Part shown: piece after piece, positions 5,809-13,913 of the stretch | Layout: each line of letters opens with the position of its first letter | Position numbering within the stretch: the first letter of the stretch is position 1 | Assembly (NCBI GenBank): GCA_030154225.1 | Contig: JASKKI010000008.1 | Span: forward strand, 1-54,003 | Source: Clostridia bacterium | GTDB lineage: Bacteria > Bacillota > Peptococcia > Peptococcales > BICA1-8 | Reading direction: 5' to 3' | Length of the DNA stretch: 54,003 nt | The notes under the pieces: model-generated | What the model was told of the DNA's origin: nothing | Database searches by the model: none | The model's input: only the letters and a program-made list of their open reading frames with translations | Made by a program: the position numbers and the translations under genes

Positions 5809-7032
5809 CTATAAAACATTATATTCAATCCCGAAGGGCTTTAAGGCTCTGGGTAAAATGCCGTGAACATGGGCGATTAACACCCCGTAATTGACAATTG
5901 GTATACCTTGGTCTTTGACCTGTTTTATCCGATAAAGCATTTCTTTACGGTTTAACATACATCCGCCACAATGAACTACCAGTTTATACTCTTCTAGGTT
6001 ATCAGGAAATTTGCTACCATTGGCAAATTCAATTGATAATTCTCCGCCCACCAATTGCCTGAGCCAGCGGGGAATTTTAACCTTACCAATATCATCAGGT
6101 TGTTGGTGATGGGTACAAGCTTCGGCGATTAAGATCTTATCTCTGGGCTTTAGGCTGTCAATGGTTTTTGCTCCCCGAACTAGGGTCAAAAGGTCCCCTT
6201 TATACCTGGCCATCAGGATTGAAAATGAAGTTAAAGGTACGTCCGGTGGAGTATCGGCAGAAACTTTCATAAAAGCCTGAGAATCGGTAACCACCAGTTT
6301 TGGTGGCTCTTTTAAAGCTAAAAAAGCTTGCTTTAATTCATACTCTTTACAAACAACTGTCAGGCAGTCATGGTCTAAAATATCCCGGATAGTTTGAACC
6401 TGGGGTAATATTAACCGTCCTTTAGGGGCTGCCATATCAATGGGGACAACTAAAATTACCATATCACCTGGTTCCAGTAAGTCCCCTACGATAGCTGGTG
6501 CCAGCCAGTCGACAGGCTTAATTTTGCTCAAATGTTGTTTGAGATTGATAATTCCTTTTTTGGATAAAGTACTAACCCAAACATAAGGTAGATCATATTT
6601 TCCGGTAAATTCTTGTTCTAACCGGGATTTTTTTAGTTGATTCAACAAATCTTCTTTATTTAAGACTACAATTAAAGGGATTTTTCTATCTTGACAAAGA
6701 TTAATCACTTTATCTTCATAATTACTAAAACCTAACACAGAATCAACAACTAACAGGGCCACATCAGTCTTTTCTAAAACATCCATGGATTTTTTAACCC
6801 GTAGGTCACCTAAAGAACCTTCATCATCAATTCCCGCTGTATCAATAAGCATGACCGGACCTACAGGTAAGATCTCCATTGCTTTATATACCGGGTCAGT
6901 AGTAGTTCCCGGGATATGAGAAACTAGAGCTATATCTTGATTGGTTAAAGCATTGATTAAGCTGGACTTTCCAGCATTGCGACGGCCAAATAAAGCTATG
7001 TGTAAACGTGAACCCTTAGGAGTTTCCTGCAT
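5809..7032 (-). CDS. hydF: [FeFe] hydrogenase H-cluster maturation GTPase HydF
   Basis: Scaffold GTPase on which the 2Fe subcluster of [FeFe] hydrogenase is assembled before transfer to HydA. The start chosen is ATG at 7032 behind AAGGTGGTG, giving 407 residues; an upstream TTG at 7056 is in frame but lacks a good SD. G1 is GRRNAGKS at 16-23, G3 DTAG at 64-67, G4 NKED at 125-128. The C-terminal cluster-binding domain carries Cys306 and His308 (CTHH) and His354-Cys355-x2-Cys358 (HCGGC), the HydF CxH...HCxxC signature. It is last in the maturation operon and overlaps the 3' end of the lyase gene by 17 nt. Confidence 0.96.
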   Translation of the reverse strand: MQETPKGSRLHIALFGRRNAGKSSLINALTNQDIALVSHIPGTTTDPVYKAMEILPVGPVMLIDTAGIDDEGSLGDLRVKKSMDVLEKTDVALLVVDSVLGFSNYEDKVINLCQDRKIPLIVVLNKEDLLNQLKKSRLEQEFTGKYDLPYVWVSTLSKKGIINLKQHLSKIKPVDWLAPAIVGDLLEPGDMVILVVPIDMAAPKGRLILPQVQTIRDILDHDCLTVVCKEYELKQAFLALKEPPKLVVTDSQAFMKVSADTPPDVPLTSFSILMARYKGDLLTLVRGAKTIDSLKPRDKILIAEACTHHQQPDDIGKVKIPRWLRQLVGGELSIEFANGSKFPDNLEEYKLVVHCGGCMLNRKEMLYRIKQVKDQGIPIVNYGVLIAHVHGILPRALKPFGIEYNVL

Positions 7033-8431
7033 TACTATCACCACCTTTTCCTGCAATCCCCGGTCGAGCCAGTTCCCGGTAGTCGAGGATTTTTTCTATT
7101 TCATTTTCCGTCAACATTTTTAATTCTTTTACCGCTTGCCGCACCGGAATATTTTTTTCTCTGGCCAGTTTAATAACTTCTGCCGTTTTCTGGTAGCCCA
7201 GGTGGGGTACTAAAACCGGGGCCATAATTAAACTTTTCTCAACAAGCTCTTGACAATGGGCGTAATTTGCCTTAATTCCTTTGATACATTTTTCTGCTAA
7301 AATTTGTGCCCCGTGGGTTAAAAGCTCAATAGCATTTAAAAGATTATGAGCTACTAAGGGTAAAAAGGCATTCAACTCCAGCTGGCCATTATGGCAGGCC
7401 AGTGTAATGGCTAGATCAGCGGCCATGACCTGAAAAGTAACGTGGTTAACGGCTTCAGGGATAATTGGGTTGACTTTCCCGGGCATAATACTGGAGCCGG
7501 CCTGCATTTCGGGAAGTTGAATCTCAGCCAATCCTGTAATAGGTCCAGATGAAAGCAGGCGTAGATCAGAGGCAATTTTGTTTAAATTAACCGCTGCCGC
7601 CTTCAGTAATCCCGAAACTTCCACAAAAACATCAGTATTTTGAGTTATATCAATCATATTTTCTGCTCTGGCCAGGCCTATACCGGTATTTTGTCGCAGT
7701 TTTTCAATTACCAGATAGATATATTCCCGGGGTGCGTTGATACCTGTTCCAACGGCAGTTCCGCCCAGGTTAACCTGGCGTAACCGTTCTTCAACTTTAA
7801 AGATTCGCCAGCGGTCCCTGGAAACGGCCTGGGCATAAGCGCTAAATTCCTGTCCTAAAGTAATGGGTAAGGCATCCTGCAACTGGGTACGACCTGGTTT
7901 GATGATACCGGCAAATTCTGCTTCTTTTTCCTGAAGGCTGTCTTGTAGATAGGCCATACTTTCACTTAAAGGTAACAGTAATTGAATAGCTGCTATTCTT
8001 AAAGCCGTAGGATATACATCATTTGTGGACTGGTGCATATTAACATCATCAAGGGGATTAACTAAATATTGGCCTTTGGAGCCGCCTAAGAGTTCAGTAG
8101 CCCTATTTGCCAGAACTTCATTTACATTCATATTGGTTGAAGTACCGGCCCCACCCTGCAGGGCATCCAGAGGGAACTGGTCCAGGAATTTACCGGCTAA
8201 AATTTCCGCACCGGCTTCCATAATGGCATATCCTTTGTTTTCCGAGAGAAAGCCCAGCTCCATGTTGGCTTGAGCTGCTGAAATTTTAACTAACACTAAA
8301 GCTTTGATTAACTGCTGGTGTACTTTTTGCCCTGATAGGGGAAAATTATCTACTGCCCTTTGGGTATGGATCCCCCAGTAAACATCAGTGGGAAGAAGTT
8401 TTTCTCCTAAAAAATCTTTTTCTGTTCTCAT
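7016..8431 (-). CDS. aspA: Aspartate ammonia-lyase-like enzyme (aspartase/fumarase superfamily)
   Basis: Predicted to cleave L-aspartate to fumarate and ammonia. It has the superfamily architecture throughout, with TSTNMNVNEVLANRA near residue 100, the active-site histidine region MHQSTNDVYPTALR near 135, the catalytic loop GSSIMPGKVNP near 315 and the C-terminal small domain. The preferred ATG at 8431 follows AGGTGATG; ATG 8437 and GTG 8440 are alternatives (471-474 residues). It lies between hydG and hydF with no gap on either side. Aspartase-like genes recur in hyd maturation operons of Clostridia, and an ammonia-supply role for the azadithiolate bridge has been considered. Related fumarase or other lyase specificity cannot be ruled out, but aspartase is favoured by context and loop sequence. 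Confidence 0.88.
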   Translation of the reverse strand: MRTEKDFLGEKLLPTDVYWGIHTQRAVDNFPLSGQKVHQQLIKALVLVKISAAQANMELGFLSENKGYAIMEAGAEILAGKFLDQFPLDALQGGAGTSTNMNVNEVLANRATELLGGSKGQYLVNPLDDVNMHQSTNDVYPTALRIAAIQLLLPLSESMAYLQDSLQEKEAEFAGIIKPGRTQLQDALPITLGQEFSAYAQAVSRDRWRIFKVEERLRQVNLGGTAVGTGINAPREYIYLVIEKLRQNTGIGLARAENMIDITQNTDVFVEVSGLLKAAAVNLNKIASDLRLLSSGPITGLAEIQLPEMQAGSSIMPGKVNPIIPEAVNHVTFQVMAADLAITLACHNGQLELNAFLPLVAHNLLNAIELLTHGAQILAEKCIKGIKANYAHCQELVEKSLIMAPVLVPHLGYQKTAEVIKLAREKNIPVRQAVKELKMLTENEIEKILDYRELARPGIAGKGGDSNAGNS

Positions 8432-8440
8432 TGCCATCAC

Positions 8441-9856
8441 CTACAGGTAAAGGTCTCTTTCACCTTTTTTAATTCGGGCCAACTTTTCTTCTGTTAAGGC
8501 TTTAATGTTATTGTTGGGAATATCTGCTAAAAAGTTGTTAATAGTTTTTTCTCCTATCTCCCTGGTTTCTGGTGAAGCATAATCCAGTAAATATTCTTGA
8601 AAGGTTAAAATAGCATTGGGTTGGCAAACGTTAGCAATATTACCTGATTTGGCTAACTGCATAAAACGATCACCTGTACGACCCTGGCGGTAACAGGCTG
8701 TACAGTAACTGGGTAAATACCCTGATTTGCACAAACTAGCTAAAATCTCGTCAGGAGTTCTATGGTCACCGACTTCAAACTGAGCAGTATTTTGGTTTTT
8801 TTTCTCAACTTTATTTTTTTCCTGAAATTCTTTTTTATAGGCACCTACTCCGGTACAGGACCCGGCACTGATCTGGGAGACCCCTAAAGCAATGACTTCA
8901 TCTCTAAATTCGGGGTTTTCTCGGGTGGAGAGGATAATACCTGTATAAGGAACGGCCAATCTTAATACGGCCACGATCATTTTAAATTCTTCATCCTTTA
9001 CCAGATAGGGGAATTGATCTATGCTGACACCGGTGGCTGGTCTCAATCTGGGTACCGAAATTGTATGGGGACCGACTCCAAAAACTTTCTCCAAATGGAG
9101 GGCATGATAAAGTAAAGCTAGAACTTCAAATTTATAATCATACAAGCCGAAGAGTACTCCGAAACCTACATCATCAATTCCTGCTTCCATGGCTCTATCC
9201 ATGGCCGTTGTATGATAGTAGTAAGAGGCTTTAGGTCCTGCCGGATGCATTTTTTCATAGGTTTCCTGATGGTAAGTTTCTTGAAATAAAATATAGGTAC
9301 CGATTCCCGCTTCTTTTAGCTTTCTGTATTCCTCAACACTGGTAGCGGCAATGTTAACATTGACCCTGCGGATAGAACCCTGATCCTCACTGGTTTCATA
9401 TATTACTTTTATAGCCTCTAATACATAATCTAGGGGACAGTTAATGGGGTCTTCTCCTGCTTCAATAGCCAATCTTTTATGCCCCATTTTTTCCAGTATT
9501 TTTACTTCTTCCCTTATTTCATCCATAGTTAATTTGCGGCGGCAAATGTCATTGGCATGGCGGTAACCACAGTAGACGCAGTTGTTAACACAGTAATTAC
9601 TGAGGTACAAAGGGGCAAAAATAACGATTCGTTTGCCATAAATCTTTTCTTTAATTTCATGAGCAGCCTTAAATATTTCTTCTTTTAACGCTGGGTCGGT
9701 AACTTCCAAAAGTACGGCCGTTTCCAAGGGTGATAAACCTTTAGCTAATCGGGCTTTTTCAATAATTTTTTTTATCTGCTCCTGGGAAGTTTGCCGGGCT
9801 TCTTTTAAATCATTTTCTATTAGCCGGGGATTTATAAAATCTACAGTCTTGTTCAC
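8441..9856 (-). CDS. hydG: [FeFe] hydrogenase maturase HydG (radical SAM tyrosine lyase)
   Basis: Radical SAM enzyme that cleaves tyrosine to p-cresol, CO and CN- and builds the Fe(CO)2(CN)(Cys) synthon for the H-cluster. The 471-residue protein has the radical SAM motif CX3CX2C at Cys89, Cys93 and Cys96. The auxiliary cluster motif CX2CX22C is intact at Cys385, Cys388 and Cys411. The GTG start at 9856 sits 3 nt after the hydE stop and uses an AAAGGAGGT SD located inside the end of hydE, consistent with coupled translation. Both cluster motifs distinguish it from the related ThiH. Confidence 0.97.
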   Translation of the reverse strand: MNKTVDFINPRLIENDLKEARQTSQEQIKKIIEKARLAKGLSPLETAVLLEVTDPALKEEIFKAAHEIKEKIYGKRIVIFAPLYLSNYCVNNCVYCGYRHANDICRRKLTMDEIREEVKILEKMGHKRLAIEAGEDPINCPLDYVLEAIKVIYETSEDQGSIRRVNVNIAATSVEEYRKLKEAGIGTYILFQETYHQETYEKMHPAGPKASYYYHTTAMDRAMEAGIDDVGFGVLFGLYDYKFEVLALLYHALHLEKVFGVGPHTISVPRLRPATGVSIDQFPYLVKDEEFKMIVAVLRLAVPYTGIILSTRENPEFRDEVIALGVSQISAGSCTGVGAYKKEFQEKNKVEKKNQNTAQFEVGDHRTPDEILASLCKSGYLPSYCTACYRQGRTGDRFMQLAKSGNIANVCQPNAILTFQEYLLDYASPETREIGEKTINNFLADIPNNNIKALTEEKLARIKKGERDLYL

Positions 9857-9859
9857 TAT

Positions 9860-10912
9860 TCAGCGACCTCCTTTAAATTTAGGGCTATGCCCATAATCAT
9901 TACTAACAGTTCTGCCTAAAGCGGCAATTTTCCCTGAGATACAATTACGGCAATGGCCTGGTGTATCATTTAAACAAATTTTATTAGGATAGATTTGATA
10001 CAATTCTCTAAATTCCGTGGGGCTCACATTGGGCATTACTACATTGGCACCGGCTGCTAAAGCCATTTCCCTTCCTCGGGGATGGATAGTGCCCAAAGCA
10101 GTTGTAGAGGGTAAGTGAATTAAGGGCATGATGATCCTGGCTACAGCAACCATTTTTAAAGTCATTTCCAGTGTACCTTGTTCACCCCAGGCTAGAGGAG
10201 TGTCAGGGTGGGGAATAAAGGGACCGATCCCCGCCATGTCTACATCCATTTTTTTTAGTAATAACAGGTCATCCGCTAAAGTATCCAAGGTCTGGCCAGG
10301 GAGACCTACCATACATCCGGAACCTAGCTGATAGCCCAACTCTTTCAGCCAGCTCTGGCATTGTAATCTTTCTTCTAAAGTTTTGCCGGGACGTATTTGA
10401 GTATAAAGGACTGGGTCTGCAGTTTCATGTTTTATTAAGTAGCGGTCAGCACCAGCCTCCCGCCAAAGTTTATAGGTAGCATAGTCATGTTCTCCGAAAG
10501 AAATGGTAATAGCTACATCAAGTTTTTTGATATCCTTGATTAATTCAGCAAAATCTCCTGGGGAATAATGATTATCTTCTCCCCCTTGTAAGACCAGGGT
10601 TCTGTAGCCTAACTGCACAGCACTTTTAGCGGCAGCATAGATTTCTTCATAACTTAACTTATACCGCTTGAGCTTTTTATTGTCATACCTGAGACCACAG
10701 TAATGGCAGTTTTGTTTACAATAATTAGAGAATTCAATTATTCCCCTCAGATGTACTTCCTTACCCATGTATTTAGCCCTAACTTTATCAGCATACTGAA
10801 AAAGGGCCTGACTTTCTTTTTCACCGGCTGCTAAGAGGGTTTTAATATCTTCTTTACTTAGTTCTGTTGTTTTTCGGGCCTTATCCAAAGTGGCCGCAAA
10901 TATCTTTTCCAT
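9860..10912 (-). CDS. hydE: [FeFe] hydrogenase maturase HydE (radical SAM)
   Basis: Radical SAM enzyme acting on the HydG product on the route to the diiron subcluster. The 350-residue protein carries CX3CX2C at Cys65, Cys69 and Cys72 (CKQNCHYC). A second, dispensable-type cluster motif is at Cys313, Cys321 and Cys324 with the same spacing as in the studied Thermotoga enzyme. GEHD and MVGLPGQT are family stretches. The ATG at 10912 follows ACGGAGGGAT, one base after the stop of the regulator gene. Strongly separated from BioB and PylB by context and by the C-terminal cysteines. Confidence 0.96.
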   Translation of the reverse strand: MEKIFAATLDKARKTTELSKEDIKTLLAAGEKESQALFQYADKVRAKYMGKEVHLRGIIEFSNYCKQNCHYCGLRYDNKKLKRYKLSYEEIYAAAKSAVQLGYRTLVLQGGEDNHYSPGDFAELIKDIKKLDVAITISFGEHDYATYKLWREAGADRYLIKHETADPVLYTQIRPGKTLEERLQCQSWLKELGYQLGSGCMVGLPGQTLDTLADDLLLLKKMDVDMAGIGPFIPHPDTPLAWGEQGTLEMTLKMVAVARIIMPLIHLPSTTALGTIHPRGREMALAAGANVVMPNVSPTEFRELYQIYPNKICLNDTPGHCRNCISGKIAALGRTVSNDYGHSPKFKGGR

Positions 10913-10913
10913 T

Positions 10914-11171
10914 TTATCCCTCCGTGATAATATGATTGGTTAGGGCAGAGCGGACTTTAATACCTTTTAAATTACCCAGTTTTCCTGTTAAGGCACCAAC
11001 TTCTTCGTTACTGCCTTCAACAATTAAAGCAATTACATTTACCGAACCTCTGCGGGGGATACCCATCCGACCGATGATAATATCCCCATGTTCACTTAAA
11101 ATTGCATTAAGACGGCTGACATTTTCCTTTTCTTCAACAACTATACCAACAACCCCGATCCGTTTTTCCAC
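10914..11171 (-). CDS. TM1266-type iron-only hydrogenase system regulator (ACT-like)
   Basis: Small putative regulator that habitually begins [FeFe]-hydrogenase maturation operons. The GTG at 11171 follows AAAGGGGG and gives 85 residues; an in-frame TTG at 11198 has no SD. The sequence (KRIGVVGIVVEE ... RMGIPRRGSVNVIALIVEG) matches the ferredoxin-like fold shared with the NikR C-terminal and ACT domains, with no DNA-binding domain visible. It lies first in the operon directly behind a leader containing an intrinsic terminator. Whether it senses a ligand or binds nucleic acid is unknown. Confidence 0.87.
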   Translation of the reverse strand: MEKRIGVVGIVVEEKENVSRLNAILSEHGDIIIGRMGIPRRGSVNVIALIVEGSNEEVGALTGKLGNLKGIKVRSALTNHIITEG

Positions 11172-11435
11172 TGTGTAAACCCCCTTTATTAAATTCAAAG
11201 TATATAGATGGTTTATAGTTCAATTATCATTCGGAATAATGATTAAAAAGATTAATATAAAAAAACCCGTAATGTAACCTGGAAAATAGGTACAATACGG
11301 GCATAAACATGCAAAAGTAAGAGTATTTTTCCTTACCCCTATTTCCTCAGGTAAAACCCTTGGCTTAAGGTTTAAAATTAGTTTTCAAACATTTCCCCTT
11401 CCCTCAGAGGACTTTCCTCCAAGGAGTCAGGGCTT
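11172..11435 (-). promoter_or_regulatory. Structured 5' leader of the hyd maturation operon (candidate attenuator/riboswitch)
   Basis: From the predicted start site near 11435 to the first codon is about 264 nt on the minus strand. The 5' end can fold at once: CCCT with AGGG, and inside GACTCC with GG..AGTC (11403-11432). A second hairpin, AAACCTT with AAGGGTTT, lies near 11352-11373. The leader ends in an intrinsic terminator at 11259-11302. A competing pairing exists: ACCT (11349-11352) and GGAAATAGG (11338-11346) against AGGT (11277-11280) and CCTATTTTCC (11281-11290), which occupies the terminator loop and part of its 3' arm. I recognise no known riboswitch class in it. Ligand-, RNA- or protein-controlled attenuation is inferred. 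Confidence 0.55.
11259..11302 (-). terminator. Intrinsic terminator inside the hyd operon leader
   Basis: On the minus strand CCCGTATTGTACCT (11301-11288) pairs with AGGTTACATTACGGG (11280-11266) with one mismatch and one bulge, and seven T residues follow at 11265-11259. No minus-strand gene lies upstream to be terminated, since comEC runs the other way. The structure therefore acts within the leader of the TM1266-hydE operon itself. Confidence 0.78.
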
Positions 11436-11441
11436 ATTTTA

Positions 11442-11470
11442 ATTATATGTGAAAAAAATAACAATTGCAA
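11442..11470 (-). promoter_or_regulatory. Predicted sigma-A promoter of the hyd maturation operon
   Basis: Minus strand: -35 TTGCAA at 11470-11465, 17-bp spacer, perfect -10 TATAAT at 11447-11442. The expected start site near 11435 coincides with the beginning of the structured leader. The -35 sits at the centre of a 26-nt perfect palindrome. Confidence 0.72.
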
Positions 11471-11480
11471 TTGTTATTTT
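11455..11480. promoter_or_regulatory. 26-nt perfect palindrome over the hyd promoter -35 (candidate operator)
   Basis: The half-site AAAATAACAATTG (11455-11467) is followed directly by its exact complement (11468-11480). The palindrome is centred on the -35 box of the hyd promoter, a position suited to a dimeric repressor. It does not match the Rex, Fur, CRP/FNR or CIRCE consensus that I know. The binding protein is unknown. Confidence 0.65.
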
Positions 11481-11609: not shown

Positions 11610-13913
11610 ATGGTTACAAATGTATCACGAACTTTAGTTAAAATAACCATTATTTTTGCCCTAGGAATAATTATTGGTTATTATTCTAATATTCCTCTTA
11701 ACTGGTCTTTTACAGCATGGGGAGGATTATTTTTGCTGGGGATTTTTTTCTTAATAGGAAAATATCCTTATAAAACATTTGTTTTCTTTATTTTTTTAAT
11801 GCTTTGGGGTGTGATCTGGGTAGATTTATTTGAATTAAATATTAATATCCTGGAAAACTGGCAGCAGCAAAAGGTTAAAGTTTCCGGGCAGGTTACATCT
11901 CTCAGTCAAGCTAATAATCAGCTGGTTCTGAAATTAAATAAAATAAACGATTGGGAATTAAAAGCCAAGCCTAAGGTTGTGGTTAAACTTAATTACCAGG
12001 AGTTTCAGGGGTTTCAGTGGGGAGATATTGTTACTTTTAGAGGTATACTGGAAAAAACTATGCCCCGGTCAAATCCGGGAGGATTTTCAGAACAAGACTA
12101 CTGGCGGCAAAAAGGTGTAGGTTATAAACTTATTTCATCCAGCCCAGGAAAAGTAGAAAAAAAAGCCCAAGGATTAAAAGCTGTTGTCTCCATGATAAGG
12201 GATAATATTTGTAAAATAATCAAATTAGAGTTACCCCCAAAAGAAAGGGGGATAATACTGGGTCTTCTTTTAGGGGACAAAGGGCTAATTGATGATAATT
12301 TTTATGAAGCTGCCCAAAAGCTGGGGATTGCCCATATTTTTGCAGTTTCGGGCTTACATGTAGGTGTAGTAATACTTTTTTATCTGGTAATTACTAAGTT
12401 CTTGAAAATACCCGACACTTTGACTTTAATGGGTGCTATAGTTATTTTAGCTTTGTACAGTTTGGTTACCGGTTTAACACCTTCCGTTGTCCGGGCCTCT
12501 ATAATGGCCGTCCTGGGACTTTTTGCAGTTAAATTATTAAAATATAAAGATTTTTACACATTCTTGGCTTTAGCTGCTTTATTAATTTTAATTTCCAGTC
12601 CATTAAGTTTGTTTACCATAGGCTTTCAACTATCCTTTATTACCACTTGGGGTATAGTTTATTTTTCTCCCTGGATTAAAGAACTATTATTTTTCTTACC
12701 TACTAAAATAAGGCTGCTTTTGGTTGTTCCCTTTGCTGCTCAACTGGCAGCATTACCTGTGGTAGTATATCATTTTAACCTTGTTTCTCTCTGGGCCCCT
12801 TTGATAAATATTTTAATCGTTCCAGTAATAATCATTGTTGTTCCTTTATTATTTGGAGCTTTGGGCCTAGCAGTTATCTGGATTAAATTAGCCGAACCAT
12901 TCCTCTTATTAGCAGGAGGGATAATTTACAGCTTATCTTTTTTGATAGAAATATTAGTAAATTCATTTACTAGAGGACATTTTTACCTGGCTAAGCCCCA
13001 CTGGATTTTAGTTGTTTTATACTTTTTAATTTTAATAGGATGGAGAGAAATCAATACATTAAAAAAAATATTGCCAGTAAAGCTAGGGATAGCCTTAGGT
13101 GTAGTGTTTATACTGGTTTTAATAATATTTTCTCTGCCAGAACCGGGGTCTTTGGAAATTACCTTTCTTGATGTAGGCCAAGGGGATGGGGCTGTATTGG
13201 TAACCCCGTATCGGCAGTTTATTATCATTGATGGAGGTCCGAGAGATGATATTATTGCCAGGCATCTCCAGTTTAAAGGCGCAAATAGGGTTGCCCTGGC
13301 GGTACTTTCTCACCCTGACCATGACCATATCACCGGCCTTTTTAAAGTTATTCAAGAGTTTCCTACCGAAATATTATTAATTCCTCCTGATATGGAAAAT
13401 AGCCAGGCTTTATATGAATTAAAAAAACTGGCTGAAAAAAGAAATACACAAGTTATAGAAGGAAAGCAAGGCATGGTAATTAAGTTTCCTTCGGGATTAA
13501 AGTTGAAAGTACTTTCACCAGAGTTAGGTATGTTAAATAATCTTGATACTAATAATGCTTCCCTGGTTGTTAATTGTTCTTATGGAGAACAGGATATATT
13601 GTTTACGGGGGATATAGATAAGTTTATGCTCTTAAAGTTATTACCTGTACTTAATGATATAGAATTGGTAAAAATTCCTCACCATGGGAGTAAAGGATCT
13701 TATTCGGAAGGATTTTATCAAAGTATAGATTCTGATCTTGCTGTTGTTTCTGCAGGAAGAAGTAACAGGTATGGCCATCCCCATAAAATAGTTATTGAGG
13801 GGCTGACAAAAGAAGGGTTAAAGATTTATCGAACAGATATTCAAGGGGCAATCATCTTGGAAACAGATGGAAAGGACATAACAGTAAAAACTATGCTTGG
13901 GGCAAGGGATTAA
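11610..13913 (+). CDS. comEC: DNA internalization protein ComEC/Rec2
   Basis: Membrane channel that passes single-stranded DNA into the cytoplasm during natural transformation. The 767-residue protein has N-terminal membrane helices (about 10-70), an OB-like DUF4131 region (about 85-170), the multi-helix Competence domain (about 225-490) containing FAVSGLHVG, and a C-terminal metallo-beta-lactamase-like domain (about 515-760) with LDVGQGDGAVLV, the metal motif HPDHDH and HHGSKGS. Full length compared with Bacillus ComEC. The ATG follows GTGAGGTAACC. It faces away from the hyd operon, sharing the intergenic region 11172-11609. Confidence 0.96.
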   Translation: MVTNVSRTLVKITIIFALGIIIGYYSNIPLNWSFTAWGGLFLLGIFFLIGKYPYKTFVFFIFLMLWGVIWVDLFELNINILENWQQQKVKVSGQVTSLSQANNQLVLKLNKINDWELKAKPKVVVKLNYQEFQGFQWGDIVTFRGILEKTMPRSNPGGFSEQDYWRQKGVGYKLISSSPGKVEKKAQGLKAVVSMIRDNICKIIKLELPPKERGIILGLLLGDKGLIDDNFYEAAQKLGIAHIFAVSGLHVGVVILFYLVITKFLKIPDTLTLMGAIVILALYSLVTGLTPSVVRASIMAVLGLFAVKLLKYKDFYTFLALAALLILISSPLSLFTIGFQLSFITTWGIVYFSPWIKELLFFLPTKIRLLLVVPFAAQLAALPVVVYHFNLVSLWAPLINILIVPVIIIVVPLLFGALGLAVIWIKLAEPFLLLAGGIIYSLSFLIEILVNSFTRGHFYLAKPHWILVVLYFLILIGWREINTLKKILPVKLGIALGVVFILVLIIFSLPEPGSLEITFLDVGQGDGAVLVTPYRQFIIIDGGPRDDIIARHLQFKGANRVALAVLSHPDHDHITGLFKVIQEFPTEILLIPPDMENSQALYELKKLAEKRNTQVIEGKQGMVIKFPSGLKLKVLSPELGMLNNLDTNNASLVVNCSYGEQDILFTGDIDKFMLLKLLPVLNDIELVKIPHHGSKGSYSEGFYQSIDSDLAVVSAGRSNRYGHPHKIVIEGLTKEGLKIYRTDIQGAIILETDGKDITVKTMLGARD

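Follow-up and report, generated by a model that had tools for sequence, protein, structure and literature searches.

Why does an intrinsic terminator stand ahead of the first gene of an [FeFe]-hydrogenase maturation operon? Little is known of how bacteria regulate the costly pathway to the H-cluster, whose CO and cyanide ligands are toxic, and the named regulator TM1266 is not known to have a described mechanism. The locus was analysed in a 54,003-nucleotide stretch of a contig from a Clostridia bacterium (JASKKI010000008.1), which is referred to as a whole as the window. A first-pass annotation, made from the letters alone, had proposed that the leader of this operon is an attenuator or riboswitch of no known class.

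Genomic context of the leader

The hyd operon lies on the minus strand (5809..11171). It consists of a gene for a TM1266-family 'iron-only hydrogenase system regulator' (10914..11171; TIGR03959, 98 bits; PF21699; PDB relative 2nzc), followed by hydE (9860..10912; TIGR03956, 399 bits), hydG (8441..9856; TIGR03955, 671 bits), an aspA-type aspartate ammonia-lyase gene (7016..8440; NF008909, 660 bits) and hydF (5809..7056; TIGR03918, 596 bits). The ammonia-lyase gene (7016-8440) inside a hyd operon fits the role in dithiomethylamine synthesis that has been reported for ammonia-lyases (PMC11736057).

A sigma-70-like promoter (TTGCAA-17-TATAAT, 10/12 match) was located at 11442..11470 on the minus strand. 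As it ends at 11442, the transcript is expected to start at about 11436, just ahead of the 5′ hairpin. Among 59 leaders, 27 carried a promoter-like match of at least 9/12 just upstream, while shuffled sequences gave 5.45 on average and 12 at most. The neighbouring comEC gene (11610-13913) is divergent and, as had been claimed, no minus-strand gene lies directly upstream that the terminator could end. A perfect palindrome, TAACAATTGCAATTGTTA, found by self-match at 11459-11476 (extended 11455-11480), overlaps the −35 box of the hyd promoter. It is a likely operator for a transcription factor, and the hyd operon may therefore have two control layers.

From the 5′ end, the leader was parsed as follows, all on the minus strand. 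Element 1 (P1), the first copy of a hairpin with GA loops (CCCUGA-[hairpin]-GAAGGGG), occupies 11395..11432; the nested hairpin predicted at the start of the transcript is thus present, with an extent of 11432-11395. A linker hairpin, GUUUgAAAacuaaUUUUaAAC, at 11370..11390 was recognised by alignment and folding, and its pairing is kept with altered sequence in the leaders of one family (f12), though not generally. Element 2 (E2), the second copy and the presumed switching hairpin, spans 11336..11371 with a minimum-energy fold of −10.0 kcal/mol and the sequence CCU-UAAGCCAA-GGG-UUUUA-CCU-GAGGAAAUA-GGGG; the segment between the linker hairpin and the terminator is ACCUGAGGAAAUAGGGG (11352-11336). 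The Shine-Dalgarno sequence of TM1266, AAAGGGGG (11180..11187; GTG start at 11171-11169), was read from the sequence. It lies 3′ of the terminator and is separate from E2. An inverted repeat, AATCATTATTCCGAATGATAATT, which loosely resembles a metal-regulator box, is found at 11221-11243, between terminator and start codon.

Terminator and antiterminator in the window

The intrinsic terminator (11259..11302, minus strand; −17.0 kcal/mol) comprises a 7-bp basal stem, an upper stem and a T7 run, the stem covering 11302-11266 and the T7 following directly. It was missed by a simple terminator scan because its stem is interrupted. The 5′ strand of the antiterminator, ACCUGAGGAAAUAGG, at 11338..11352 on the minus strand, is composed of ACCT (11352-11349) and GGAAATAGG (11346-11338). 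Its 3′ strand, CCUAUUUUCCAGGU (11277..11290, minus strand), lies in the upper stem and loop of the terminator; the minus strand reads CCTATTTTCCAGGT at 11290-11277. All coordinates that had been proposed for the terminator and both antiterminator strands were recovered on the minus strand. What had not been seen is that the 3′ half of E2, the second copy of the upstream folded domain, doubles as this 5′ strand.

In fold computations on the window, the antiterminator duplex (14 bp) reached −19.1 kcal/mol, compared with −17.0 kcal/mol for the competing terminator. The predicted best fold contained the antiterminator when the transcript ended at 11276-11272 and the terminator once 11266 was reached. 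The claim that antiterminator pairing breaks the terminator holds for the upper stem and the loop, which are destroyed, and fails for the 7-bp basal stem (−8.3 kcal/mol), which survives intact. E2 and the terminator of the window are not in direct conflict with each other. Folding exceeded chance expectation, with a fold z of −3.6 for the 175-nt window leader and of −4.2 for a related leader from another family.

Relatives of the leader and covariance models

A DNA search of the class returned the leader with 73% identity over 104 nt and 66-67% over about 200 nt. These relatives (G037, G044 and also L035) precede TM1266 in another family and have an antiterminator 5′ strand that is identical from CUGAGG on, and a conserved terminator; CTGAGGAAATAGGGGTAAG is identical in L033, L034 and L035. 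Among the regions upstream of 82 TM1266 homologues, a CCUGA...AAGGGG signature was found repeated in distant leaders. The core pattern was present in 32 of these regions (dinucleotide shuffles: average 3.8, maximum 9). A search of 299 genomes with an exact 19-mer pattern, allowing 3 mismatches, was abandoned, as chance matches swamped the signal.

Model R1 was built from three sequences (core plus terminator). Run over whole genomes, it gave distant matches (L088-L092) that were rejected, being mostly coding sequence and including no hyd leaders; its weak matches in TM1266 loci pointed to the real motif. Model R2 was built from alignment A6, which holds 10 leaders and leaves out the window and its near relatives. 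It recovered 11330-11434 of the minus strand (19.7 bits, E 5e-4), the next match in the window scoring 9.7. At whole-genome scale the window leader was joint best with one unrelated site, 19.7 bits being a modest score. R2 gave no match in four non-Bacillota loci (L045, L047, L050, L051).

A conserved hairpin with covarying helices

The recurring unit is a symmetric hairpin of the form CCU-GA-N3-6-RA-GGG-loop-CCU-GA-N3-6-RA-GGG, in which three short helices are arranged around two GA/RA internal loops. The window leader contains two copies, at 11395-11432 and 11336-11371; P1 is a copy with a longer middle helix, and some lineages (f48, f101, f94) have a single copy only. The internal-loop nucleotides are conserved across about 31 families. 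The consensus hairpin was the minimum-energy fold in six representatives and for the E2 of the window, which departs from the consensus in having UA/UA instead of GA/RA in one loop. E2 had also been drawn as two mini-hairpins (CCUGA..AAGGG, twice), and this was replaced by one hairpin on the basis of RNAalifold and a P2xP3 permutation test. A kink-turn reading was rejected because no 3-nt bulge was seen.

A lack of covariation in homologous leaders had been named as grounds for refuting the first-pass annotation; leaders from about 31 families covary strongly. In the 10 seed leaders of A6, two-sided changes were observed in 5 of the 8 P1 pairs, and in 50 leaders in all 8. The covariation score over these 50 leaders was 0.475, whereas shuffling gave 0.157 and slid partners no more than 0.136. 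The fit of this alignment to the model biases it towards the structure, but relatedness is preserved in the slides. For the middle helix of E2, the arms of 44 distinct leaders scored 7.07 with their own and 5.38 with permuted partners (z = 6.1), a value reached by none of 20,000 permutations. Registers within 2 were allowed in this test, leaders with arms misplaced by the model were left out, and the window, L187, L112 and L115 were parsed by hand with 2 pairs each. Exchanged arms included GUCC/GGGC, ACGA/UCGU, GUUU/AAAC, CGC/GCG and GGU/ACC. In E2, the CC and GG of both the outer and the inner helix are near-invariant and therefore neither support nor contradict pairing.

Recurrence of the proposed switch

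The E2 segment was compared with its own downstream region in 63 leaders. The best ungapped helix scored 18.9, against 17.0 for permuted partners (z = 5.9), and this complementarity was reached by none of 5,000 permutations. RNAduplex energies had been tried for antiterminators and were dominated by base composition; ungapped helices with permutation were used instead. Mutual exclusion of terminator and antiterminator was predicted by computation in the window and by permutation over the 63 leaders. Terminator and antiterminator recur while their sequences differ and their complementarity is matched, which supports the proposed reading as a switch or attenuator. In the strongest cases, the pairing strand is the loop-proximal stretch of one or other E2 arm: UGCGCCAAAG pairs with CUUUGGCGCA in L161 and L169, and GGGGGGAGAA with UUUUCCUCCC in L175 and L176, while L034 pairs GGAAAUAGG with CCUAUUUCC, a helix that contains one bulge in the window. 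About one third of the leaders had no terminator by a simple finder, and about half had no special antiterminator match.

A second type of output is suggested by the leaders of ECF genes. Here the terminal G run of E2 (GGGGG) doubles as the Shine-Dalgarno sequence, and the start codon follows within 12 bases; the terminal G run also forms the Shine-Dalgarno sequence in one hydE leader (L185).

Gene association and distribution

R2, trained on TM1266 leaders only, was used to scan 399 genomes of the phylum with the RNA alone. Following removal of duplicates, 67 fetched loci remained. The downstream gene was TM1266 in 35, HydG in 13, HydE in 5 and an ECF S component in 3; a hyd or ECF gene thus followed the RNA in 56 of 67. 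The other 11 were weak and mostly inside open reading frames, except for L171, which was cut off by the contig end. Model R3 matched 24 of the 26 genomes that share a class with G311 and 14 of the 22 that share one with G057. Of 32 R3 loci, 31 preceded TM1266, HydG, HydE, HydF (L255) or an ECF gene, some of these being sites from the first scan or members of the R3 training set; the sole exception, L274, is a probable pyr leader. By family labels the RNA is carried by about 31 families, and its carriers include culturable organisms, Moorella thermoacetica among them. The RNA that precedes the H-cluster maturation operon TM1266-hydE-hydG-aspA-hydF in the window is, in other genomes, also located ahead of hydG, hydE, hydF and an ECF transporter gene, an association that goes beyond the first-pass annotation.

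An orphan ECF-transporter S component was found directly behind the RNA in two families (L173, 2078-2572; L174, L204, L231, L232, L269). The association was seen in f48 and again, at a weaker threshold, in f124 (L231). The protein is a PF12822 substrate-binding subunit. Structure comparison returned weak matches only, to ThiT and RibU (E about 0.01, TM about 0.6), from which no specificity was inferred. Its substrate may be the RNA ligand or a nutrient for H-cluster assembly; across the genes downstream of the RNA, no single function indicates a ligand.

Comparison with known RNA classes

At the gathering threshold, Rfam 15 gave no match in the window or in 40 related loci, in agreement with the earlier failure to recognise a class, and permissive searches gave chance-level matches only. 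The motifs of Weinberg 2017 are reportedly largely in Rfam. Literature searches returned no paper on a hyd-linked RNA. Hydrogenase was not mentioned in the main text of three surveys of new bacterial RNAs (PMC11109978, PMC8632094, PMC6429828) or of an attenuator survey (PMC2965389). The hyd leader RNA thus appears to be an undescribed structured RNA, absent from Rfam 15 and widespread in unrelated Bacillota.

Several known systems share parts of this design. RNAs of the Guanidine-II (mini-ykkC) type consist of two small similar hairpins in tandem, as in the hyd RNA; the latter, in contrast, is conserved in two internal loops rather than the terminal loop and precedes other genes. T-box and amino-acid attenuators are clostridial leaders in which terminator and antiterminator compete, like the hyd leader. 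No T-box match in Rfam was obtained for the window or its relatives, and no AGGGUGGNACCGCG element was seen. The PyrR attenuator (RF00515) likewise combines a conserved hairpin, an antiterminator and a terminator, and is of the protein-controlled type; R3 matched one probable pyr leader, as noted above. However, the hyd leaders precede other genes and fold differently, and RF00515 scored 19.1 bits (E 3.9) on the window, far below its gathering score of 54. With riboswitches that have transcription-terminator platforms and tandem copies (for example those reviewed in PMC9481103) the hyd RNA has in common a conserved domain at the 5′ end that is present once or twice, strand competition, metabolically linked genes plus a transporter gene downstream, and terminator or Shine-Dalgarno outputs. 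It differs from them in having no Rfam match and in its unit, which is one hairpin without branches that contains two GA/RA loops.

Proposed mechanism and alternatives

One fold is shared by leaders of hyd genes and appears, when formed, to end transcription or mask the start of translation, so that a signal read by RNA probably controls hydrogenase assembly. On balance, we favour a cis-regulatory class that reports on the product of, or the need for, H-cluster assembly, and in which folded E2 is the OFF state. One or two tandem hairpins at the 5′ end of the transcript would sense this product or need. Folding of the gene-proximal E2, presumably stabilised by ligand, would make its strand unavailable for the antiterminator; the terminator would then form and the gene would be off. 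In the ECF-transporter leaders and the one hydE leader, folded E2 would hide its internal Shine-Dalgarno sequence, with the same outcome. With E2 open, one of its strands could pair with the 5′ arm or loop of the terminator, and transcription would continue. It is from the terminator and Shine-Dalgarno arrangements together that we infer a stable E2 to turn the gene off, and it is in the same spirit that a small molecule or metal, and not a protein, is put forward as what E2 binds. A narrower form is rather unlikely: a riboswitch for an intermediate or product specific to H-cluster maturation, such as the iron-carbonyl-cyanide synthon, CO or cyanide, or for a small molecule moved by the ECF transporter, that would shut assembly off once supply suffices.

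A protein-controlled attenuator is less probable, though it deserves serious attention. TM1266 or another protein would bind the repeated GA-loop hairpins and control its own operon and other hyd genes. Among the genes that follow the RNA, TM1266 is the most frequent (35 of 67 loci). It is small and ACT/NikR-C-like, and is called a regulator, yet domain and family profile searches of the window protein gave no DNA-binding domain match; tandem small hairpins would also suit an oligomeric protein. TM1266 was present in all 22 RNA-bearing genomes tested, most of them picked for the RNA before another gene, which is weak evidence because about 46 of 53 HydG-bearing relatives carry it whether or not the RNA is present. 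TM1266 moreover occurs in genomes and loci that yielded no such RNA.

Rather unlikely is a switch of opposite sign, in which the bound hairpin turns expression on, for example where binding opens E2 or favours the antiterminator. The OFF assignment comes from strand competition only, a ligand-free folded E2 could be the ground state, and E2 and terminator of the window do not conflict directly. Against this, stabilisation of E2 would, in both output types, work against expression, by withdrawing the antiterminator strand or by masking the Shine-Dalgarno sequence, and ligand binding usually stabilises the conserved fold. A constitutive leader structure serving stability, pausing or processing, with a terminator of fixed efficiency and no sensing, would account for conserved structure and terminator without any ligand. 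This is improbable given the internal-loop conservation in about 31 families, the co-change of the exclusive strands with the terminator and the use of two different outputs. That the element is no leader RNA at all is very improbable: AT-rich DNA is rich in short hairpins with T runs, as the shuffle counts show, but conservation, covariation and gene association exclude chance, and the promoter in place and the missing upstream minus-strand gene speak against the terminator of such a gene.

In the favoured reading, the RNA would be a concrete switch in culturable organisms, including M. thermoacetica, and would offer biohydrogen and acetogen research a new handle. It offers a direct test of TM1266 action on RNA, and the list of co-regulated genes, with its orphan vitamin-type transporter subunit, may reveal a missing nutrient or cofactor.

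Other leaders upstream of TM1266

A second leader type upstream of TM1266 has CUGA-[hairpin with GGGUACGUCCC]-AAAGGC before a terminator and does not take the two-copy form. Its hairpin consensus is GGGUNCGYCCC. It was found in five leaders (L012, L023, L024, L095, L097), one of which (G003/L097) belongs to the window's own family, and no Rfam match was obtained in the loci tested. It may be a one-hairpin variant of the hyd leader RNA. A third type (L004, L006, L032) reads CUGACAC-AAAGAUUCGUUCU-GCGUG-AAAGGC and is possibly related to the hyd leader RNA. Finally, a module-like sequence at 1369-1466 of L018, matched by R1 only, separates TM1266 from the gene that follows, which was read as hydG, and suggests that the RNA may also sit inside hyd operons.
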